Assembly (NCBI GenBank): GCA_018647945.1
Contig: JABGSE010000077.1
Span: forward strand, 1 to 64,000
Length of the DNA stretch: 64,000 nt
Origin: Flavobacteriales bacterium
GTDB lineage: Bacteria > Bacteroidota > Bacteroidia > Flavobacteriales > BACL11
Reading direction: 5' to 3'
Shown here: in pieces, positions 53,967 to 63,897 of the stretch
How the letters are laid out: each line of letters opens with the position of its first letter
Numbering within the stretch: position 1 is the first letter of the stretch
Program-made: the position numbers and the translations under genes
Notes under the pieces: model-generated
What the model was told of the DNA's origin: nothing
What the model saw: the letters and a program-made list of their open reading frames with translations, nothing else
Database searches by the model: none

Positions 53967-55415
53967 TTATATCGCTTTCCCCAATAATGTTGCAGAGGTA
54001 CATTCTTCAATCTCTACCATTACATAATCTCCTTTTTTGTAATTTTCCTTTGGAAATACTACCGCAGAATTATGTGTTGTTCTTCCGTACAGTTTTTCTT
54101 CTGACTTTTTAGAAGTTCCTTCTACTAAAACTTCAAATGTTTCCCCAATTTTTTCTTTCATATGTAGCAATGAATGTACTTGTTGTTTTTCAATAATTTC
54201 AGCCAATCTCCTTTGTTTTACATCATTTGGAATGTCGTCCTCAAACTTCCTTTCGGCAGTTGTGTTTGGTCTTTCAGAATATTTAAACATATAACCATAT
54301 TCGTATTTTACATAATCCATTAAACTCAAAGTTTCTTGATGGTCCTGTTCTGTTTCAGAGCAGAATCCTGTAATCATATCCATAGAAATTGAACAATCAG
54401 GAATTGTATTTTTGATATTATCAATCAAAGTGATATATTTTCCCCTAGTATAACCTCTATTCATTTTTGATAATATTCTATCACTTCCGGATTGAACAGG
54501 GAGATGAATATAATTGCAAATGTTATTGTATTTTTTCATTACCTGAATTACATCTAAAGTCATATCTTGTGGGTTAGAAGTGGAAAATCTAATTCTTAAT
54601 TTTGATCCAACTTCTGCAACCATTTCAAGTAAATTTGCAAAACTGACGCTATTTTCTTGTGCATCTTTTGTTGCTTTTTTGAAATCTTTTTTTGCTCCTC
54701 CTCCATACCATAAATAGGAATCTACATTTTGTCCCAAAAGAGTTACTTCTTTGTATCCATCTTTAATTAATTGTTTACATTCATTTACAATGCTTTCAGG
54801 ATTTCGACTTCTTTCCCTACCTCTAGTAAAGGGAACTACACAAAAAGTACACATATTGTCGCATCCCCTTGTGATAGATACAAATGCTGTTACACCATTT
54901 CCTCCTAGTCGGACAGGACTGATATCCGCATAAGTTTCTTCCTTTGAAAGGAAAACATTTACCGCTTTTCTTCCGTCATCAACTTGTTTAAGTAAATTTG
55001 GTAAATCCCTGTAAGCATCTGGTCCAATTACTAGGTCAACTAATTTTTCTTCTTCCAAAAATTTTTCTTTTAATCTTTCTGCCATACATCCTAAAACTCC
55101 AACTATCATTCCTGGATTTTTATCTTTTTTTATAGAGTTATAAAATTCCAATCTTTTCCGAACGGTTAGTTCTGCTTTCTCACGAATTGAACATGTGTTT
55201 ACAAAAACTAAATCGGCTTCATTTATATCTTGAGTAGTAGAAAATCCTTCCTTTGTAAGGATGGAAGCGACAATTTCAGAATCGGAAAAATTCATTTGAC
55301 ATCCATAACTTTCTATATACATCTTTTTACTTCCTTTTGGATTGTCAACTATTGATAATCTTTCTCCTTGTTTACTTTCGTCTATTTTTTTCTCTAAAAC
55401 CTGTGTAATATTCAT
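53967..55415 (-). CDS. miaB: tRNA-2-methylthio-N6-dimethylallyladenosine synthase MiaB
   Basis: MiaB methylthiolates i6A37 in tRNAs that read UNN codons. The 482-residue protein has the N-terminal UPF0004 domain with Cys in [23 protein letters not shown] and [10 protein letters not shown], which bind the second iron-sulfur cluster; the radical-SAM motif CDNMCTFC near residue 185; and a C-terminal TRAM domain ([20 protein letters not shown]). It begins the minus-strand run toward groL and diverges from topA, with a promoter at 55438-55469. Confidence 0.97.
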
Positions 55416-55469: not shown

Positions 55470-55598
55470 TATGACACTTGTTTATTTGCTTATATTATTA
55501 TATAATATAGTAAAACTGACACAAAAAAATGATTTGGCAGATTCAAAAATTCTTCTTTTTCTTTGCAAAACAATTTAACAACAAACACAAAAATAATT

Positions 55599-57935
55599 AT
55601 GGCAAAGAATTTAGTAATTGTAGAGTCTCCAGCAAAAGCGAAAACTATTGAAGGATATTTAGGAAAGGACTTTTTGGTGAAATCCAGTATTGGTCACATT
55701 AGAGATTTACCTAAGAAAGGTGGAATGGGAATTGATATTGAAAACGGATTTGCTCCTAATTATGAGGTTTCTGAAGATAAAAAACATGTTGTAGTAGATC
55801 TTAAAAAGCATGTAAAAGTAGCTGATACGGTATGGATTGCAACGGATGAGGACCGAGAGGGAGAGGCAATTGCTTGGCATTTACAAGAGGTTTTAAACTT
55901 AGAAAAAAAAGATACCAAACGAATTGTTTTTCATGAAATTACGAAAAAAGCAATTACCAATGCAGTGAAAAATCCAAGAGAGATCGACATGCATTTAGTG
56001 GACGCTCAACAAGCAAGAAGGGTTTTAGATAGATTAGTAGGTTTCGAACTTTCCCCTGTACTTTGGAGAAAAGTAAAACAAGGACTTTCTGCAGGTAGGG
56101 TTCAGTCAGTTGCCGTTAGGTTAATTGTAGAAAGAGAAAAAGAAATTGAAAACTTTAAATCGGTATCTTCTTACAGGGTATCGGCAATATTTACAACTCC
56201 TGAAGGAAAAACATTTAAGTCAGAAATATCTAGAAGGTTTCAAACTTTAGATGGGTCGGAAGTATTTTTAAAACAATGTGTTACCGCTTCTTATAAAATT
56301 TCTGATTTAGAAACTAAACCAGCTAAAAAATCTCCTTCTGCACCATTTACTACTTCTACTTTGCAGCAGGAAGCATCTAGAAAACTAGGTTATTCAGTTG
56401 CTCAAACTATGAATGTGGCTCAACGATTATACGAATCGGGTAAAATTACTTATATGAGAACTGATAGTGTAAATCTATCGAATGACGCAAGGGAAGCCTG
56501 TATAAATGAAATTACTTCTTCTTATGGTTCTGAATATTCTAAAACAAGAACATTTGCAACAAAATCGAAAGGAGCTCAGGAAGCTCATGAGGCGATTAGA
56601 CCGACAGATATGAGTAAACACACAGTAGATGGAGAGAGTTCTCACCAGAAATTATATGATTTAATTTGGAAAAGAACTATTGCTTCTCAAATGTCGGAAG
56701 CTCAATTAGAAAGAACTATTGCTAAAATTGATATTTCTACTTCTGACGAGCAGTTTACTGCAAAAGGAGAGATGATTAAGTTTGATGGATTTATGAAGGT
56801 TTACATGGAAGGAAAGGATGATAATTCTGAAGAACAAGACGGGATGCTTCCAAAATTAAATGTAAATGATGATTTGGAAATGAATGAAATAACTGCTATC
56901 GAAAGATTCTCGAGACATCCTGCCAGATATGCAGAAGCTAGTTTGGTGAAAAAATTAGAGGATTTAGGTATTGGAAGACCTTCCACTTATGCTTCAATTA
57001 TTACCACTATTCAGAAAAGAGGATATGTTGTAAAAGAAGGTAGAGAGGGAGTAAAAAGAGAATATCAGTATCTTATTTTAAAAGATAATTCCATCACTAA
57101 AGAAGTGAAAACAGAAAATACAGGTGCGGAGAAAAATAAAATGTTTCCAACAGATATTGGTGTTGTGGTAAATGATTTTTTAGTTACACATTTTGATCAT
57201 GTGTTAGATTATGGATTTACAGCAGGTGTAGAAGATGAATTTGATGAGGTTGCAGCTGGAAAGAAAAAATGGAATGATATGTTGCAAGATTTTTATGCTC
57301 CTTTCCATGAAAAAGTAGAAAATGTAATTGGTACTGCAGAAAAAGCCTTAGGAGAGCGTAATTTAGGAAAAGACCCTGCCTCTGGAAATACTGTTTATGT
57401 TCGTATTGGTCCTTTTGGGCCTATGGTTCAATTGGGAGAAAAACAGGAAGATGAAGATGCTCCAAAACCAAAATTTGCATCTTTAATGAAAGATCAGTCT
57501 ATACAAACCATTACAATGGATGAGGCTTTAGAATTGTTTAAATTACCAAGAACTGTTGGTGAGTTTGAAGGGGAAGAGATAGTTGCTTCAGTTGGTAGAT
57601 TTGGTCCGTATTTAAGATATCAAGGTAAATTTACTTCTATCAAAAAAAATGATGGAGACGATCCTTTAACTATTGAAATTGACAGAGCGATTGAGTTGAT
57701 AAAAATTAAAATTCAATCAGATAAAGATAGATTAATTTTAAACTTTGATGGAGATCCTTTAGTTCAGGTTTTAAATGGTAGATATGGAGCTTTTATTCAG
57801 GTTTCTCCTCCGAAAGGGAAAAAGATAAATGTAAAAATTCCAAAGGATTTAGAACCAAAAGAACTTACAAGAGAAAAATGTTTAGAGTTAATGGAGAATC
57901 AACCAAAATCAAAGTTTAAGAGAAATAAAAAATAA
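55599..57935 (+). CDS. topA: DNA topoisomerase I
   Basis: TopA relaxes negative supercoils by single-strand passage. From the ATG at 55599 the 778-residue product starts MAKNLVIVESPAKAKTIEGY (TOPRIM Glu), has the TOPRIM DxDxE-like ATDEDREGEAIAWH near residue 79, the active-site Tyr in ITYMRTDSVNLS near 289 and GRPSTYASI near 477. The C-terminus holds Toprim-C-type repeats (GPFGPMVQLGEKQ, GRFGPYLRYQGK and GRYGAFIQV) in place of zinc ribbons, as usual in this phylum. The frame is open 12 codons earlier at 55563. The arginase-like gene starts directly after its stop. Confidence 0.97.
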   Translation: MAKNLVIVESPAKAKTIEGYLGKDFLVKSSIGHIRDLPKKGGMGIDIENGFAPNYEVSEDKKHVVVDLKKHVKVADTVWIATDEDREGEAIAWHLQEVLNLEKKDTKRIVFHEITKKAITNAVKNPREIDMHLVDAQQARRVLDRLVGFELSPVLWRKVKQGLSAGRVQSVAVRLIVEREKEIENFKSVSSYRVSAIFTTPEGKTFKSEISRRFQTLDGSEVFLKQCVTASYKISDLETKPAKKSPSAPFTTSTLQQEASRKLGYSVAQTMNVAQRLYESGKITYMRTDSVNLSNDAREACINEITSSYGSEYSKTRTFATKSKGAQEAHEAIRPTDMSKHTVDGESSHQKLYDLIWKRTIASQMSEAQLERTIAKIDISTSDEQFTAKGEMIKFDGFMKVYMEGKDDNSEEQDGMLPKLNVNDDLEMNEITAIERFSRHPARYAEASLVKKLEDLGIGRPSTYASIITTIQKRGYVVKEGREGVKREYQYLILKDNSITKEVKTENTGAEKNKMFPTDIGVVVNDFLVTHFDHVLDYGFTAGVEDEFDEVAAGKKKWNDMLQDFYAPFHEKVENVIGTAEKALGERNLGKDPASGNTVYVRIGPFGPMVQLGEKQEDEDAPKPKFASLMKDQSIQTITMDEALELFKLPRTVGEFEGEEIVASVGRFGPYLRYQGKFTSIKKNDGDDPLTIEIDRAIELIKIKIQSDKDRLILNFDGDPLVQVLNGRYGAFIQVSPPKGKKINVKIPKDLEPKELTREKCLELMENQPKSKFKRNKK

Positions 57936-59093
57936 ATGGAAATAGCGTCTAATTTTATTCCCTTAAATCCGGGATTGTATTCTGTAAAAGAAAGATGGAA
58001 TCCTTCTCAGATTGGATTTCAGATTGATCCTCATACTCAAGAATCTTTTCCGAATGTGGATTATGCCGAAATAGCAATTTTTAATGTTCCGGAATATGAT
58101 GGGACAGATAATGTTGCAACAACTGCTGATTGTAAAATTAGAGATGCTTTTTACCGCTTGTACTTTGATGATTTGCCAAAAGTTGCCGATTTGGGAACTT
58201 TAAGTATGATGCCGACACGAAAAGAGTCTTTTGAGTTGATTACAGAGGTTTGTACAGACTTAATTGATAAAGGGATTATCCCAGTAATTATTGGTGGTGG
58301 ACAGGATATTTCCTATGCAATCTATAAATCTTATGCGAATTTACAAAAGGGAATAACTTTTTGTTCCGTTGATTCAACTTTTGATATTGGAAAACAAGAA
58401 GATAAGTTAAATGCTAAATCTTTTCTGAGTAAAATTATATCGTACAAACCCAATTATTTATTCAATTATATCAATTTAGGTTACCAAACTTATTTTGTGA
58501 AACCAGAAGAAATTTCATTATTGGAAGGTTTAAATTTTGAAGTTAACAGATTGGGGGAAGTTAAAAATAATATGTACGAAATTGAACCGCTTCTTAGAAA
58601 CGCTGATTTTTTAAGTTTTGATTTGTCTTGTGTAAAAAGCTCTTTTGTGATGTCAAATGTTTATTCTACTCCTAATGGATTTGATGGGGAAGAAGCTTGT
58701 AGAATATCAAGATATGCAGGTATTAGCGACAAAATCAGTTGTTTTGGTATTTTTGAATACAATCAGGATTTGGATGAAAATAACCAAGGTTCTCAATTGA
58801 TATCTCAAATGATGTGGTATTTCCTGGAAGGAGTTAGAAGTAGAAAGCACGAATTAAACCCTAATGTTAATAACTGTGTTAAATACACGGTAGCATTTGA
58901 GGACGAACAAACACAAATAGTATTTTACAAGAGTAAAACTAGTGGTAGATGGTGGATGGGAGTACCGTTTAAATCTTCCAAAACAGATGAAATGGACAAT
59001 TATTTTGTAGCCTGCTCTTACCATGATTACGAGAAGGCAAATAAGGGGGAAATACCCCAAAGATGGATAAAAACATACAACCGCTTTTTATAA
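57936..59093 (+). CDS. Arginase/formiminoglutamase-fold protein with lost metal ligands
   Basis: The 385-residue product is a ureohydrolase-fold protein that aligns with formimidoylglutamase, with IIGGGQDISYAIY at residues 118-130, the second motif as SVDSTFDIG (144-152) and the third as SFDLSCVKSS (227-236). Active enzymes have GGxH(D/S), DAHxD and SxDxDxxDP; here His becomes Gln, the DAH triplet becomes DST, and the third motif lacks its second Asp and the DP. At least three metal ligands are gone, so hydrolysis of arginine or formiminoglutamate is unlikely. It lies between topA (no gap) and the porP-gldKLMN operon, a position I believe is conserved. Function unknown. Confidence 0.8.
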   Translation: MEIASNFIPLNPGLYSVKERWNPSQIGFQIDPHTQESFPNVDYAEIAIFNVPEYDGTDNVATTADCKIRDAFYRLYFDDLPKVADLGTLSMMPTRKESFELITEVCTDLIDKGIIPVIIGGGQDISYAIYKSYANLQKGITFCSVDSTFDIGKQEDKLNAKSFLSKIISYKPNYLFNYINLGYQTYFVKPEEISLLEGLNFEVNRLGEVKNNMYEIEPLLRNADFLSFDLSCVKSSFVMSNVYSTPNGFDGEEACRISRYAGISDKISCFGIFEYNQDLDENNQGSQLISQMMWYFLEGVRSRKHELNPNVNNCVKYTVAFEDEQTQIVFYKSKTSGRWWMGVPFKSSKTDEMDNYFVACSYHDYEKANKGEIPQRWIKTYNRFL

Positions 59094-59185: not shown

Positions 59186-60097
59186 ATGAAAAGAACGATA
59201 CTAATTATTACATTAATTGCCCTGACATTTGGGATTTCGTCAGCTCAGCAAGTACCTCAATTTAGCCAGAATATGTTTAATAAACTTGCCAATAACCCTG
59301 GTTCTGCAGGGAGTGGACAGGCAATTTGTGCAACTGTACTTCACCGATCTCAATGGATGGGTTTTGACGGAGCTCCGACAACTTTAAATTTAAGTGTTGA
59401 TGCTCCAATACCATCAATGCATGGAGGTATAGGAATTAACATAATGTCAGACGCAATTGGAGAATATAACAACTTAGGACTTCAACTTTCTTATGCTTAC
59501 AGAACAGATTTAGGAGATGGTCAGTTAGGAATAGGAGCTTCTGCAGGTATGTTTCAGAGTGGTTTGAATGGTACTCTTTTAAATCCTGCGGATGGTGGTG
59601 ATGGTTCAATTCCTACTTCTGAAGTGAGTGGTTCTGCTATGGATTTTGGTGGAGGTATTTATTACAACACTCAGGATGTGTATTTAGGACTTTCTACTTT
59701 ACACATAACTGAACCTTCTATCGAAAAGAGTGATGGTGATGTAATTAACCTTTCTCGTCATTATTTTTTACTTGCTGGTTTCTACCATGAATTGAATCCT
59801 ACTTTGTCGTTAAACCCGTCTATTTACCTTAAATCTGACGGTTCTACATCACAATTGGATATAAATACAAATATTTTATACAATAATAGGATATGGGGAG
59901 GCGTTAGTTACAGATTAGATGAAGGTATTGTATTGTTAACAGGAATGAATATAAATGAAGATCTAAAATTCGGATTGGCCTATGATGTCGTTCTGAATAA
60001 AATAAAAAATAACAGTATTGAGTTTATGTTGGGCTATTGCTTTAAAGTGGATTACGATAAACCAGTAAAAAGTTATAAAAACCCAAGATACTTATAG
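59186..60097 (+). CDS. porP: PorP/SprF-family type IX secretion membrane protein
   Basis: PorP/SprF proteins are outer-membrane barrels linked with T9SS. The 303-residue product has a signal peptide (MKRTILIITLIALTFGISSA), the family opening QVPQFSQNMFNKLANNPGSA with the N-terminal NPGSAG turn, LHRSQWMGFDGAPTTLNLSV near 50, and repeated beta strands ending with a GYCFKVDYD strand. It lies 38 bp upstream of gldK and likely shares the gldKLMN transcript, as porP does in Porphyromonas. A weak promoter-like TATATTAG is at 59141-59148. Confidence 0.9.
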   Translation: MKRTILIITLIALTFGISSAQQVPQFSQNMFNKLANNPGSAGSGQAICATVLHRSQWMGFDGAPTTLNLSVDAPIPSMHGGIGINIMSDAIGEYNNLGLQLSYAYRTDLGDGQLGIGASAGMFQSGLNGTLLNPADGGDGSIPTSEVSGSAMDFGGGIYYNTQDVYLGLSTLHITEPSIEKSDGDVINLSRHYFLLAGFYHELNPTLSLNPSIYLKSDGSTSQLDINTNILYNNRIWGGVSYRLDEGIVLLTGMNINEDLKFGLAYDVVLNKIKNNSIEFMLGYCFKVDYDKPVKSYKNPRYL

Positions 60098-60135: not shown

Positions 60136-61419
60136 ATGAATATGAAAAAAATATTATTTTTAGGAACAATTGTAGCTCTTTTAAGTAGTTGCGGTGGCTC
60201 AGGTAATGGAGAATTAATTGGTTCTCAAGACAGACAAATTTGGAATCCGACTGACCCTTACGGGATGGTATTTGTTCCTCAAGGAAGTTTTGTAATGGGA
60301 CCATCTGACCAAGATGTTCCTTTTGCAAATGTTACAACAAACAAAAGAGTTTCTATTGGAGCATTTTACATGGATGAAACTGAAATTACAAATAACGAAT
60401 ATCGTCAGTTTGTAAATTGGGTAAGAGATTCAATAATCAGAACTGCTTTGATTGAAAATGCTGATCCAGATGTTTATGGAGTTATTAATGAAGAAACAGG
60501 AGAGTATAAAATTAATTGGAATGTAAGAGTAAGACATGATGATGATGATGTTCGTTTTGCTTTAGAGTCTGCAGAATTGTATTATACAGATTACAATACT
60601 GGAAGAAATAAATTAGATACTAGAAAACTAATTTATTCTTACAAAACCCTTGACTTATCTAAAGCAGCTAAAAAATCTAGTAGAGATGACGATAGTCCGG
60701 AAAGTTATATCACAGAAAATGAGATTAATATTTTTCCAGATACTTTAACTTGGATGCATGATTATGCATATTCTTTTAATAAACCTTATTCCGAAAATTA
60801 TTTCTGGCATGTTGCTTATGATGATTATCCAGTTGTAGGTGTAAATTGGCATCAAGCTGTTGCATTTACAAAATGGAGAACTAAAATGATGAATGAGTTT
60901 TTAAGATCTCATAATGAACCTACTTTACCAGAGTTTAGACTTCCTACGGAATCAGAATGGGAATATGCTTCTAGAGGTGGTTTAGATGAATCTCCATATC
61001 CATGGGGAGGACCTTATACAAGAAACTTAAAGGGATGTTTCCTTGCAAACTTTAAGCCTTTGAGAGGGAATTATACTGCTGATGGTGGAATTAAAGCAAT
61101 TAAAGTAATGAGTTATAATCCGAATGGTTTTGGACTTTACGATATGGCGGGAAATGTTGCAGAGTGGACTTCAAATATTTATGATGAGTCTTCAGCTTCT
61201 TATTCTCATGATATGAATGGAGATTATGTTCATACTGCTGATGAAGGAGAGGAAGATGTAATGATGAGAAAAGTAATTAGAGGAGGTTCTTGGAAAGATA
61301 TTTCTTATTTTATACAAAACTCTACAAGATCATATGAATATCAAGATACATCAAAATGTTATGTTGGCTTCAGATGTGCAGTTGATTTCTTAGGTAGAGA
61401 TAAACAAGATTTTCAGTAA
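60136..61419 (+). CDS. gldK: Gliding motility / T9SS lipoprotein GldK
   Basis: GldK (PorK) is an outer-membrane lipoprotein that forms the periplasmic T9SS ring with GldN. The 427-residue product has a lipoprotein signal with lipobox LLSSC (KKILFLGTIVALLSSCGGSG) and a formylglycine-generating-enzyme-like sulfatase-modifying domain: MVFVPQGSFVMGPSD near 43, FRLPTESEWEYASRGG near 274, GNVAEWTSNIYDES near 340 and VIRGGSWKDISYF near 380. An insertion at about 115-215 with DDDDVRF and SSRDDDSPES is GldK-typical. A second ATG two codons on (60142) is also possible. It precedes gldL by 32 bases. Confidence 0.95.
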   Translation: MNMKKILFLGTIVALLSSCGGSGNGELIGSQDRQIWNPTDPYGMVFVPQGSFVMGPSDQDVPFANVTTNKRVSIGAFYMDETEITNNEYRQFVNWVRDSIIRTALIENADPDVYGVINEETGEYKINWNVRVRHDDDDVRFALESAELYYTDYNTGRNKLDTRKLIYSYKTLDLSKAAKKSSRDDDSPESYITENEINIFPDTLTWMHDYAYSFNKPYSENYFWHVAYDDYPVVGVNWHQAVAFTKWRTKMMNEFLRSHNEPTLPEFRLPTESEWEYASRGGLDESPYPWGGPYTRNLKGCFLANFKPLRGNYTADGGIKAIKVMSYNPNGFGLYDMAGNVAEWTSNIYDESSASYSHDMNGDYVHTADEGEEDVMMRKVIRGGSWKDISYFIQNSTRSYEYQDTSKCYVGFRCAVDFLGRDKQDFQ

Positions 61420-61451: not shown

Positions 61452-62105
61452 ATGGGATTAGGAAATATAACAGAACAAAAGTGGTACAAAGTAATGATGC
61501 CAAAACTTTATGGTTGGGGTGCATCTTTGGTAATTATTGGAGCTCTTTTCAAAATTGAGCATTGGCAATTTGCAAGTACATTCTTAATTATTGGATTAGG
61601 TACTGAAGCAATTATTTTCTTTTTCTCTGCATTTGAGAAACCACATGAAGATCCTGATTGGTCATTGGTTTATCCTGAATTAAATTACATGAATGATCCT
61701 GATGGAACTAAACCTTTGTCTCCATCTCAAGAACTAGATGCCGCACTTGAAAAAGCTAAGATTGATAATGAGCTGATTGAAAGCTTAAATGAAGGATTAA
61801 GATCATTTGGTGAAGCTTCCACAAAATTAAATGAAACAATAAGTGCCGCTTCTGGTATCTCAGAGTATAATAGCCAAATTCAGGAAGGTGTTAAAAATAT
61901 GAATGCATTAAATTCTTTATATGAATTACAGTTACAAGCATCTAATCAGCAAATGGAAGCTACTACTATGTTCCTTCAAAATTTACAGGCTTCAGTGGAT
62001 GATTCTAGAAAGTTCCAAGAACAAGTTTCTCAATTAGCTGTTAATTTGGAACAAATGAATAAAGTATATAGCAATATGCTTACTGCAATGAATCCGAACA
62101 AATAA
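61452..62105 (+). CDS. gldL: T9SS motor component GldL
   Basis: GldL with GldM forms the inner-membrane proton-driven motor for type IX secretion and gliding. The 217-residue product has two membrane helices at about residues 19-35 and 42-60. The second holds a buried acidic residue, Glu52, in GLGTEAIIFFFSAF, which corresponds to the proton-carrying Glu in Flavobacterium GldL, and a Lys34 ends the first. A cytoplasmic helical tail follows, with SLNEGLRSFGEASTKLNETI. It lies 31 bases before gldM. Confidence 0.95.
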   Translation: MGLGNITEQKWYKVMMPKLYGWGASLVIIGALFKIEHWQFASTFLIIGLGTEAIIFFFSAFEKPHEDPDWSLVYPELNYMNDPDGTKPLSPSQELDAALEKAKIDNELIESLNEGLRSFGEASTKLNETISAASGISEYNSQIQEGVKNMNALNSLYELQLQASNQQMEATTMFLQNLQASVDDSRKFQEQVSQLAVNLEQMNKVYSNMLTAMNPNK

Positions 62106-62136: not shown

Positions 62137-63897
62137 ATGGCAGCAGGAAAATTGTCACCAAGACAAAAGATGATTAACATGATGTATTTAGTGCTTACAG
62201 CATTACTTGCATTAAATGTTTCTAAGGAGGTTCTGAACTCTTTCTTTGAGGTGAATTTAGGAATTGTGAAAACTACTGAAAGTCTTAGTGATAAGAATAA
62301 TGATATCTATTCTGATTTTACAAATGCAACAAATCAAGTAAAAGTAAAACCTTACAAAGATTTAGCATTTCAAATAAAACCAGAATCTGATAAGTTGGTT
62401 GAAATGATTCAGGAGATGAAGTATTCACTTGTTTTAGCTGTTGATAAAAAAGTGTATTTAGGTCAGTATTTAGATGATGAAGGAGAACCAATTGAAGATA
62501 ATGCTATAGAAAGTGAGTATACTGATTTGACTCCATCACAAAAGAAAATGAAAATTGCTGAGCTTAGCAATAAGGAAGATAGAGACGCTTCCTCTGATTT
62601 ATTTAATCCTGAAAATAAGCAAGGTGCCGCAAGGATTTTAGATAAGAATGGTAATGGATTAGCAACTCAATTGAGAGGAAATGTAGAATCGTTTAGAGTA
62701 TTGTTGTCAAATATTTTGAAAACAGCTGAGGATTCTAGTTGGATAAAACAAGGTTCATCAGAATCATTAATAGATGAGATTGATAAAACTCTAAAATTAC
62801 ATGATAATTATGGTAAGAAGAGGAATGAGTCTTGGGAGTTTTATAATTTTAATGATATGCCATCTGTAGCGGCTTTAACTATTTTATCAAAATTACAAAC
62901 AGATATTAAAAATATGGAATCTGAGGTTATCGCATTCTTAGCTACAAATATTGATGCGTCTTCATTGAAATTTACTTCTGCAGAGGCTATTACAATTCCT
63001 AAAACAAATTTTGTTTCAAGGGGAGATGAATTTACAGCTGATATCTTTTTGACTGCAAAAGACAAAACACAAACTCCAGAAATTTATATAGGAGATTATG
63101 ATTCTACTTTAGGTTCAAATGGAGATTATGTATACACAATGAAAGATCCTTCTTTAGAACCTTTGGAAGTTGTAAATGGTAAAGGTATTTACAAACAGAA
63201 AACAAGTACTGAAGGAGAGAAGAAGTGGAGAGGTATTCTTAAAATGATTACTGATAATGGAATAAAAACATTTCCATTTAGTGGTTCATATTTAGTAGCT
63301 AACAGAATGGCTGTTGTTTCTCCTACAAAAATGAATCTCTTTTATTTGAAAGTGGATAATCCAGTTCAGGTATCTGTACCTGGTTTTCAGGCTTCTGACT
63401 TAACCGTTTCTATTACTAATGGAACAATAAAAGCAACTAAGAAGTCGAAAGGAGAATATAATGTTGTACCATCAAAACTAGGAAAATCTGTTATTTCAGT
63501 TTATGTTATGAAAGATGGAAAGAAAGTTAAAATGGGTTTTATGGATTTTAGAGTGAAATCAGTTCCTCCGCCAATTGCTACCATTGATAAAAAAGAAGGT
63601 GGAGTAATTAGTAAAAGTATGATGTTGGCTTCAGGAGGTTTGGTTGCAGAGTTAAGAGATTTTGAATTTGAGGGAGTTAGGTTTAAGGTGATTGCTTATA
63701 CATTGACAACTACATATCAAGGAGATCAAGTTAATGAAAAAGTGAAGGGAGCTCAGTTTACTCCAAAAATGAAAAAAGTAATTAAAAACACAAGTTCAGG
63801 AAGTAAAATAACAATTTCTGACATTAAAGCAAGGAGGTCAGATGTTAAAGGATTACCAGCTAGGAATTTGCCTCCTGCGGTATTTACAATAAAATAA
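62137..63897 (+). CDS. gldM: T9SS motor component GldM
   Basis: GldM spans the inner membrane once and reaches through the periplasm to the GldKN ring, coupling the GldL motor. The 586-residue product opens with SPRQKMINMMYLVLTALLAL at residues 7-26, the well-known GldM membrane helix, followed by a long helical region (about 30-270) and four beta-rich domains to the end, including YLVANRMAVVSPTKMNLFYL near 386 and PPPIATIDKKEGG near 485. Length and domain order match the family. gldN follows after 18 bases. Confidence 0.96.
   Translation: MAAGKLSPRQKMINMMYLVLTALLALNVSKEVLNSFFEVNLGIVKTTESLSDKNNDIYSDFTNATNQVKVKPYKDLAFQIKPESDKLVEMIQEMKYSLVLAVDKKVYLGQYLDDEGEPIEDNAIESEYTDLTPSQKKMKIAELSNKEDRDASSDLFNPENKQGAARILDKNGNGLATQLRGNVESFRVLLSNILKTAEDSSWIKQGSSESLIDEIDKTLKLHDNYGKKRNESWEFYNFNDMPSVAALTILSKLQTDIKNMESEVIAFLATNIDASSLKFTSAEAITIPKTNFVSRGDEFTADIFLTAKDKTQTPEIYIGDYDSTLGSNGDYVYTMKDPSLEPLEVVNGKGIYKQKTSTEGEKKWRGILKMITDNGIKTFPFSGSYLVANRMAVVSPTKMNLFYLKVDNPVQVSVPGFQASDLTVSITNGTIKATKKSKGEYNVVPSKLGKSVISVYVMKDGKKVKMGFMDFRVKSVPPPIATIDKKEGGVISKSMMLASGGLVAELRDFEFEGVRFKVIAYTLTTTYQGDQVNEKVKGAQFTPKMKKVIKNTSSGSKITISDIKARRSDVKGLPARNLPPAVFTIK

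Follow-up and report, generated by a model that had tools for sequence, protein, structure and literature searches.

Arginases bind two metals through six ligands, which in the numbering of rat arginase-1 (rat Arg1), used here throughout for ligand positions, are residues 101, 124, 128 and 232 for metal A and residues 124, 126, 232 and 234 for metal B. The arginase fold also occurs without a metal centre in MetCb, in the Trypanosoma brucei arginase-like protein and in fusobacterial arginase domains (PMC11271267). Arginase-fold pseudoenzymes have therefore already been described, and the protein that we analyze here is probably a further case, one that spans most of the Bacteroidia. It is encoded in a stretch of 64,000 nucleotides of Flavobacteriales DNA, which is referred to in full as the window, and we call it ARG for its arginase-fold family.

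Gene, fold and distribution

ARG is encoded by an uninterrupted reading frame of 385 codons with an ATG start (57936..59093, + strand). An earlier note on this DNA had described an intact 385-residue gene with ureohydrolase motifs, and we found exactly that open reading frame with the quoted motifs present. The Pfam Arginase model (PF00491) matched ARG with E=1.7e-14 and 54.4 bits against a cut-off of 22, placing the protein in the superfamily. The score against the NCBIfam hutG model (TIGR01227), 46.3 bits, was far under the 229-bit cut-off for the equivalog, and that against the NCBIfam agmatinase model, 34 bits, was below its cut-off of 174. AlphaFold was run on ARG with 83 family members as input and predicted an arginase/ureohydrolase fold for ARG (pLDDT 95.4, pTM 0.93). 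The solved structures closest to this model in Foldseek were metformin hydrolase, formiminoglutamases and agmatinases, with TM up to 0.8 by target. The ureohydrolase scaffold that had been read from the motifs is thus borne out by a high-confidence predicted structure whose top matches are arginase-family hydrolases.

The source genome of the window (1.62 Mb, ~98% complete, 99 contigs) has ARG as its only PF00491 protein. No signal peptide and no hydrophobic or transmembrane segment was evident in ARG, so the protein should be cytoplasmic, in which case it could make no contact with periplasmic or outer-membrane GldK or PorP. We found no paper treating the proteins of this family.

Of 396 Bacteroidia genomes, 373 contained a match to the window protein, although the weakest matches may include a few other ureohydrolases. 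We built a quick maximum-likelihood tree from 85 sequences. All 40 ARG-family rows in it fell into one clade (SH-aLRT 100) on a long stem (1.09), beside formiminoglutamase-like enzymes with intact ligands that belong to other classes of the phylum. Only inside Bacteroidia did we find the family with its C-terminal extension, and we take the tree to indicate a single origin. Loci L181-L185 (family f62) encode strongly diverged or N-terminally shortened relatives of ARG that keep mainly the C-terminal half.

The C-terminal extension is a family-specific domain of four strands and two helices (residues ~305-385; 58848..59090, + strand) that is absent from the hydrolase relatives; those outside Bacteroidia stop aligning near position 310 of a profile of 390 positions. 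This domain of ~80 residues was present in members throughout the family and was about as conserved as the core, with F330 and W339 invariant, W340, C360, D364 and Y365 near-invariant and W377 invariant or near-invariant. In the window and in the family alignment it ends in a PDRWW-x3-QKL-like motif. Over this region a Pfam scan of 68 members returned scattered sub-threshold matches only, a PDB profile search gave nothing better than 0.03, and Foldseek gave no fold match with E<0.001. The domain did not figure in the earlier note, and it may be the seat of the present function.

Metal ligands and the retained half-site

To compare ligands we used an alignment of 106 distinct Bacteroidia homologues with E. 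coli SpeB and 30 intact Bacteroidia ureohydrolases, in which one of the 106 is a fragment lacking the motifs, so that most counts are out of 105. Relative to rat arginase-1, H101 corresponds to Q123 in ARG, D124 to D146, H126 to T148, D128 to D150, D232 to D229 and D234 to S231; three of the six ligands are replaced (Q123, T148, S231) and three are kept (D146, D150, D229). All of the codons lie on the + strand. At the metal-A His position, Q123 (58302..58304), the homologues carry Q in 69, H in 23 and N in 6 of 106. The kept carboxylates are the bridging D146 (58371..58373; D in 99/105), the metal-A ligand D150 (58383..58385; D in 94/105) and the second bridging residue D229 (58620..58622; D in 100/105). 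At the metal-B His position, T148 (58377..58379), histidine occurs in just 4/105. The metal-B Asp position, S231 (58626..58628), is S in 73, G in 10, N in 10 and T in 7, and the one D occurs in a diverged sequence whose alignment there is probably wrong. The catalytic-pocket Glu (E277) position is also kept, as E274 (58755..58757; E in 83/106).

In the canonical set of 30 intact enzymes all six ligands were invariant except in one truncated sequence. In the ARG homologues the metal-B His is gone in ~100 and the metal-B Asp in ~104 of 105; these homologues come from several dozen families, and the site-A carboxylates are retained in ~90-95% of them. The kept Asp residues stand at conservation percentiles 92, 88 and 93, and the position of the lost metal-B His (T148) is at the 22nd, among the least conserved. 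Since the same replacements recur in 105 distinct homologues, they are not a sequencing accident. ARG does not have the residues of an active binuclear ureohydrolase (H/N, D, H, D, D, D), both metal-B-only ligands being gone. Homologues at the same locus with a full ligand set were what the earlier note had named as counting against its claim of loss; we sought them among the 105 aligned members and found no clear case. Some diverged members (a few only: L151, L156, L154, L149, L152, L157) have lost one or more site-A carboxylates as well, and metal binding therefore cannot be the universal function of the family.

Comparison with formiminoglutamases helps to separate the changes that matter from those that do not. 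In the nearest intact relatives the motifs are GGGHD, D-T/A-H-L-D/N and SFD-L/M/I-D-x-V/I-x-S-x-DAPG, and in T. cruzi formiminoglutamase they are GGGND, DSHLD and SFDVDSLKSSDMPG, with no DP. The PDB titles 'T. cruzi formiminoglutamase with Mn2+2' and 'N114H variant with Mn2+2' show that the wild-type enzyme has Asn and binds two Mn. Because Asn at the His101 position coexists with two Mn in that enzyme, Gln or Asn there is not diagnostic. The ligand losses proposed earlier hold for T148 and S231 (the H126 and D234 positions), the metal-B-only ligands whose replacement is decisive; the altered GGxH and the absent DP, which had been counted with them, are lineage features and not signs of inactivation.

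With metal-B loss family-wide in an intact, conserved gene, "pseudoenzyme" is a likely label for ARG. The remaining half-site looks maintained, favoring metal or ligand binding, and the conserved Asp residues could instead be structural.

We suggest, with a probability of roughly 55%, that ARG belongs to an old Bacteroidia clade that has retained half of the metal site and acts as a cytoplasmic, non-hydrolytic binding protein with a new C-terminal domain. The clade would descend from ureohydrolases of the formiminoglutamase-like (HutG) type. Loss of the metal-B site (the positions of His126 and Asp234) would most likely have ended binuclear hydrolysis, and the conserved C-terminal alpha/beta domain of ~80 residues would have been gained. 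The maintained half of the pocket would comprise the site-A residues (Gln, His or Asn, and three Asp), the pocket Glu and a conserved Asp that adjoins the replaced His. The old pocket would accommodate either a single divalent metal or a small metabolite resembling an amidino compound or glutamate, and its bound state would be relayed to a partner by the C-terminal domain. Lack of catalysis, binding of a single metal or ligand, and signaling are what we infer as most likely from these residues. More tentatively, ARG may be a half-site regulator that responds to a metal or metabolite, or else an amidine hydrolase with a mononuclear site, and in either capacity it may couple metabolism to T9SS/gliding or to topA.

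Genomic neighborhood and alternative roles

The location of ARG had been described as conserved in Flavobacteriia, which is correct and extends beyond that group. In the window, miaB (53967..55415, - strand) is divergent to topA and is conserved in the block, topA (55563..57935, + strand) directly abuts ARG with a 0-bp gap, and both names come from a reading of the sequence. A porP-like gene (59186..60097) begins 92 bp downstream of ARG and is followed by gldK-like (60136..61419), gldL-like (61452..62105) and gldM-like (62137..63897) genes, all on the + strand. Among 91 longer loci the commonest order was TopA> ARG> PorP> (52 loci), neither neighbor was present in 22, and TopA> ARG> GldK> without porP was found in 6. 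At L052, L054, L086, L087, L088 and L095, porP is absent between ARG and gldK and the rest of the block is retained; L090 carries a tandem pair of GldM-like genes.

Sixty-eight loci had enough flank for the whole block to be scored: 33 carried miaB-topA-ARG-gldK, 9 had the other genes but no miaB that we could detect, 21 had none of the three neighbors and 5 were partial. GldK was near ARG in 44 of the 68, placing ARG in a gld/por neighborhood. The block is mostly inherited and lost as a whole, housekeeping genes included, which weakens any inference from position to T9SS function, and proximity to gliding and secretion genes alone is no proof of joint function with ARG. ARG is closely spaced with topA: over half of the linked loci have a gap of -8 to +20 bp, with many overlaps. 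The gap between ARG and porP was 57-393 bp. The Bacteroidetes-type promoter motif TAnnTTTG occurred between ARG and porP in 16 of 62 cases against 7.8 expected by shuffling, too weak an excess to rely on. In 28 broken-block loci the sole recurrent neighbor was an epimerase-like gene, divergent, in 7.

The alternative that survived best, and which we still consider unlikely, is that ARG is a T9SS/gliding accessory, a scaffold or sensor that would bind the motor where it reaches into the cytoplasm, for example at the cytoplasmic domain of GldL. ARG adjoins porP or gldK in many families, GldL was present in 95 of 95 ARG-positive genomes, and 13 of 13 GldL-negative genomes lacked ARG (Fisher p=8e-7, uncorrected for kinship and with ten ambiguous genomes left out of the counts). 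The GldL-negative genomes, however, represent a small number of clades, and several are reduced; GldL was also present in 42 of 55 ARG-negative genomes, so ARG does not occur wherever there is a T9SS. ARG is nested within T9SS-bearing lineages and is dispensable for T9SS. The rate residuals of ARG correlated with those of GldK (0.58) and GldL (0.48) above TopA (0.32), but the control gene LptE gave similar correlations with the Gld genes. In a rel mutant of P. gingivalis, induction of porPKLMN was accompanied by that of the hypothetical gene just upstream of porP, PGN_1678 / PG_0286 (PMC6994654, PMC12119571), a candidate ARG homologue and as such a lead only. Against a T9SS role, the conserved block takes in miaB and topA and usually breaks whole, ARG sits against topA and 57-393 bp off porP, and ARG is not mentioned in two T9SS papers, on translocon mechanism and on the interactome. 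We regard a T9SS link as possible and weak. The earlier note had proposed that enzymatic loss was selected in an intact gene that serves as a scaffold or sensor with GldK, GldL or PorP; selected loss is supported in a gene that is near-universal, old and of single origin, and the part concerning these partners was not borne out.

Rather unlikely, in our view, is that ARG is an active single-metal hydrolase that would cleave formiminoglutamate or a related amidine through site A (Gln/His and three Asp), and we judge in the same way the corollary that ARG would supply the missing HutG step in the window genome. This genome encodes a urocanase (HutU; L187, 7111-9114, G000:C29) of the long form, with 667 aa from the first ATG in an open frame of 690, and an imidazolonepropionase (HutI; L190, 7148-8404, G000:C91). 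FTCD, FGase, canonical HutG and a second arginase-family gene were not found in the ~98% complete assembly, so that the last step of histidine breakdown has no assigned enzyme in this small genome. With none of the other recognized formiminoglutamate-using families that we tested present, and ARG as the sole sequence of the right family, the gene content is compatible with an enzymatic role. ARG retains the pocket Asp and Glu, and a Mn-binding formiminoglutamase tolerates Asn at the His position. Both metal-B-only ligands are nonetheless missing, and we know of no mononuclear site-A ureohydrolase. Moreover, ARG has no genetic link to the hut genes (ARG on C39, HutU on C29, HutI on C91), and with the assembly incomplete and in 99 contigs, the gene for the missing step may simply be absent from it. 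An FTCD domain was found in 46 of 60 ARG-positive genomes and 5 lacked urocanase, so ARG is not generally a hut enzyme. FTCD-lacking genomes such as G089 and G055 have an arginase-family gene beside urocanase, and in G089 this gene keeps all ligands and ARG is also present. The urocanases of Bacteroidia fall into two length classes, ~560 and ~680 aa, with very different hutU model scores.

It is quite improbable that ARG is a housekeeping partner of topoisomerase I or of tRNA/DNA metabolism, translationally coupled to topA: the TopA-ARG gap is often -4 to +20 bp and is zero in the window, but ARG lies apart from topA in 23 of the 68 loci with enough flank (~1/3), its rate correlation with TopA is just 0.32, and ARG has no DNA-binding family match. 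We dismiss as extremely unlikely a dead subunit in a hetero-oligomer with an active ureohydrolase paralogue, for which metformin hydrolase subunits as top fold matches and the established precedent of MetCb with MetCa would speak, since ARG is the sole arginase-family gene in the window genome, which leaves it no active paralogue there to pair with, and since this ancient family has no paralogue paired next door.

Significance and comparison with known arginase-fold systems

About 94% of the Bacteroidia sampled carry this gene, whose age makes it a marker of the class and which has no assigned function. Members of the family are annotated as formimidoylglutamase, an activity against which the predicted active site of ARG argues. 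As a binder of a metal or metabolite, ARG would represent a sensor of a new kind; as a partner of the T9SS, a cytoplasmic component that has gone unrecognized; and as a single-metal hydrolase, a reason to revise the view of what catalysis requires in the arginase fold. Under each of these readings a common annotation would need correcting.

The closest enzymes by PDB profile are formiminoglutamases (HutG) such as those of T. cruzi (4mxr) and B. subtilis (3m1r), which share the fold of ARG and gave the best matches (8e-20 to 1e-18). The GGGxD and SDxPG signatures are common to ARG, T. cruzi formiminoglutamase and the nearest intact relatives. Unlike HutG, ARG lacks the metal-B His and Asp, carries the additional C-terminal domain and scores far under the hutG cut-off. 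Among the pseudoenzymes, the T. brucei arginase-like protein (4rhi), cited as such and found among the fold matches of ARG, likewise has an arginase fold with replaced ligands. Judged from its mutant S149D/R151H/S153D/S226D, however, it has lost most of the Asp ligands, whereas ARG retains those of site A, and we know of no neighborhood or C-terminal domain common to the two. MetCb/MfmB of metformin hydrolase, the enzyme that gave the top fold matches of ARG, is a metal-free arginase-family pseudoenzyme that forms a heterohexamer with an active neighboring paralogue; ARG has no paralogue in its own genome. Histone deacetylases, which have the arginase/deacetylase fold, use one of the two metal positions, the one equivalent to metal B, whereas ARG keeps site A.
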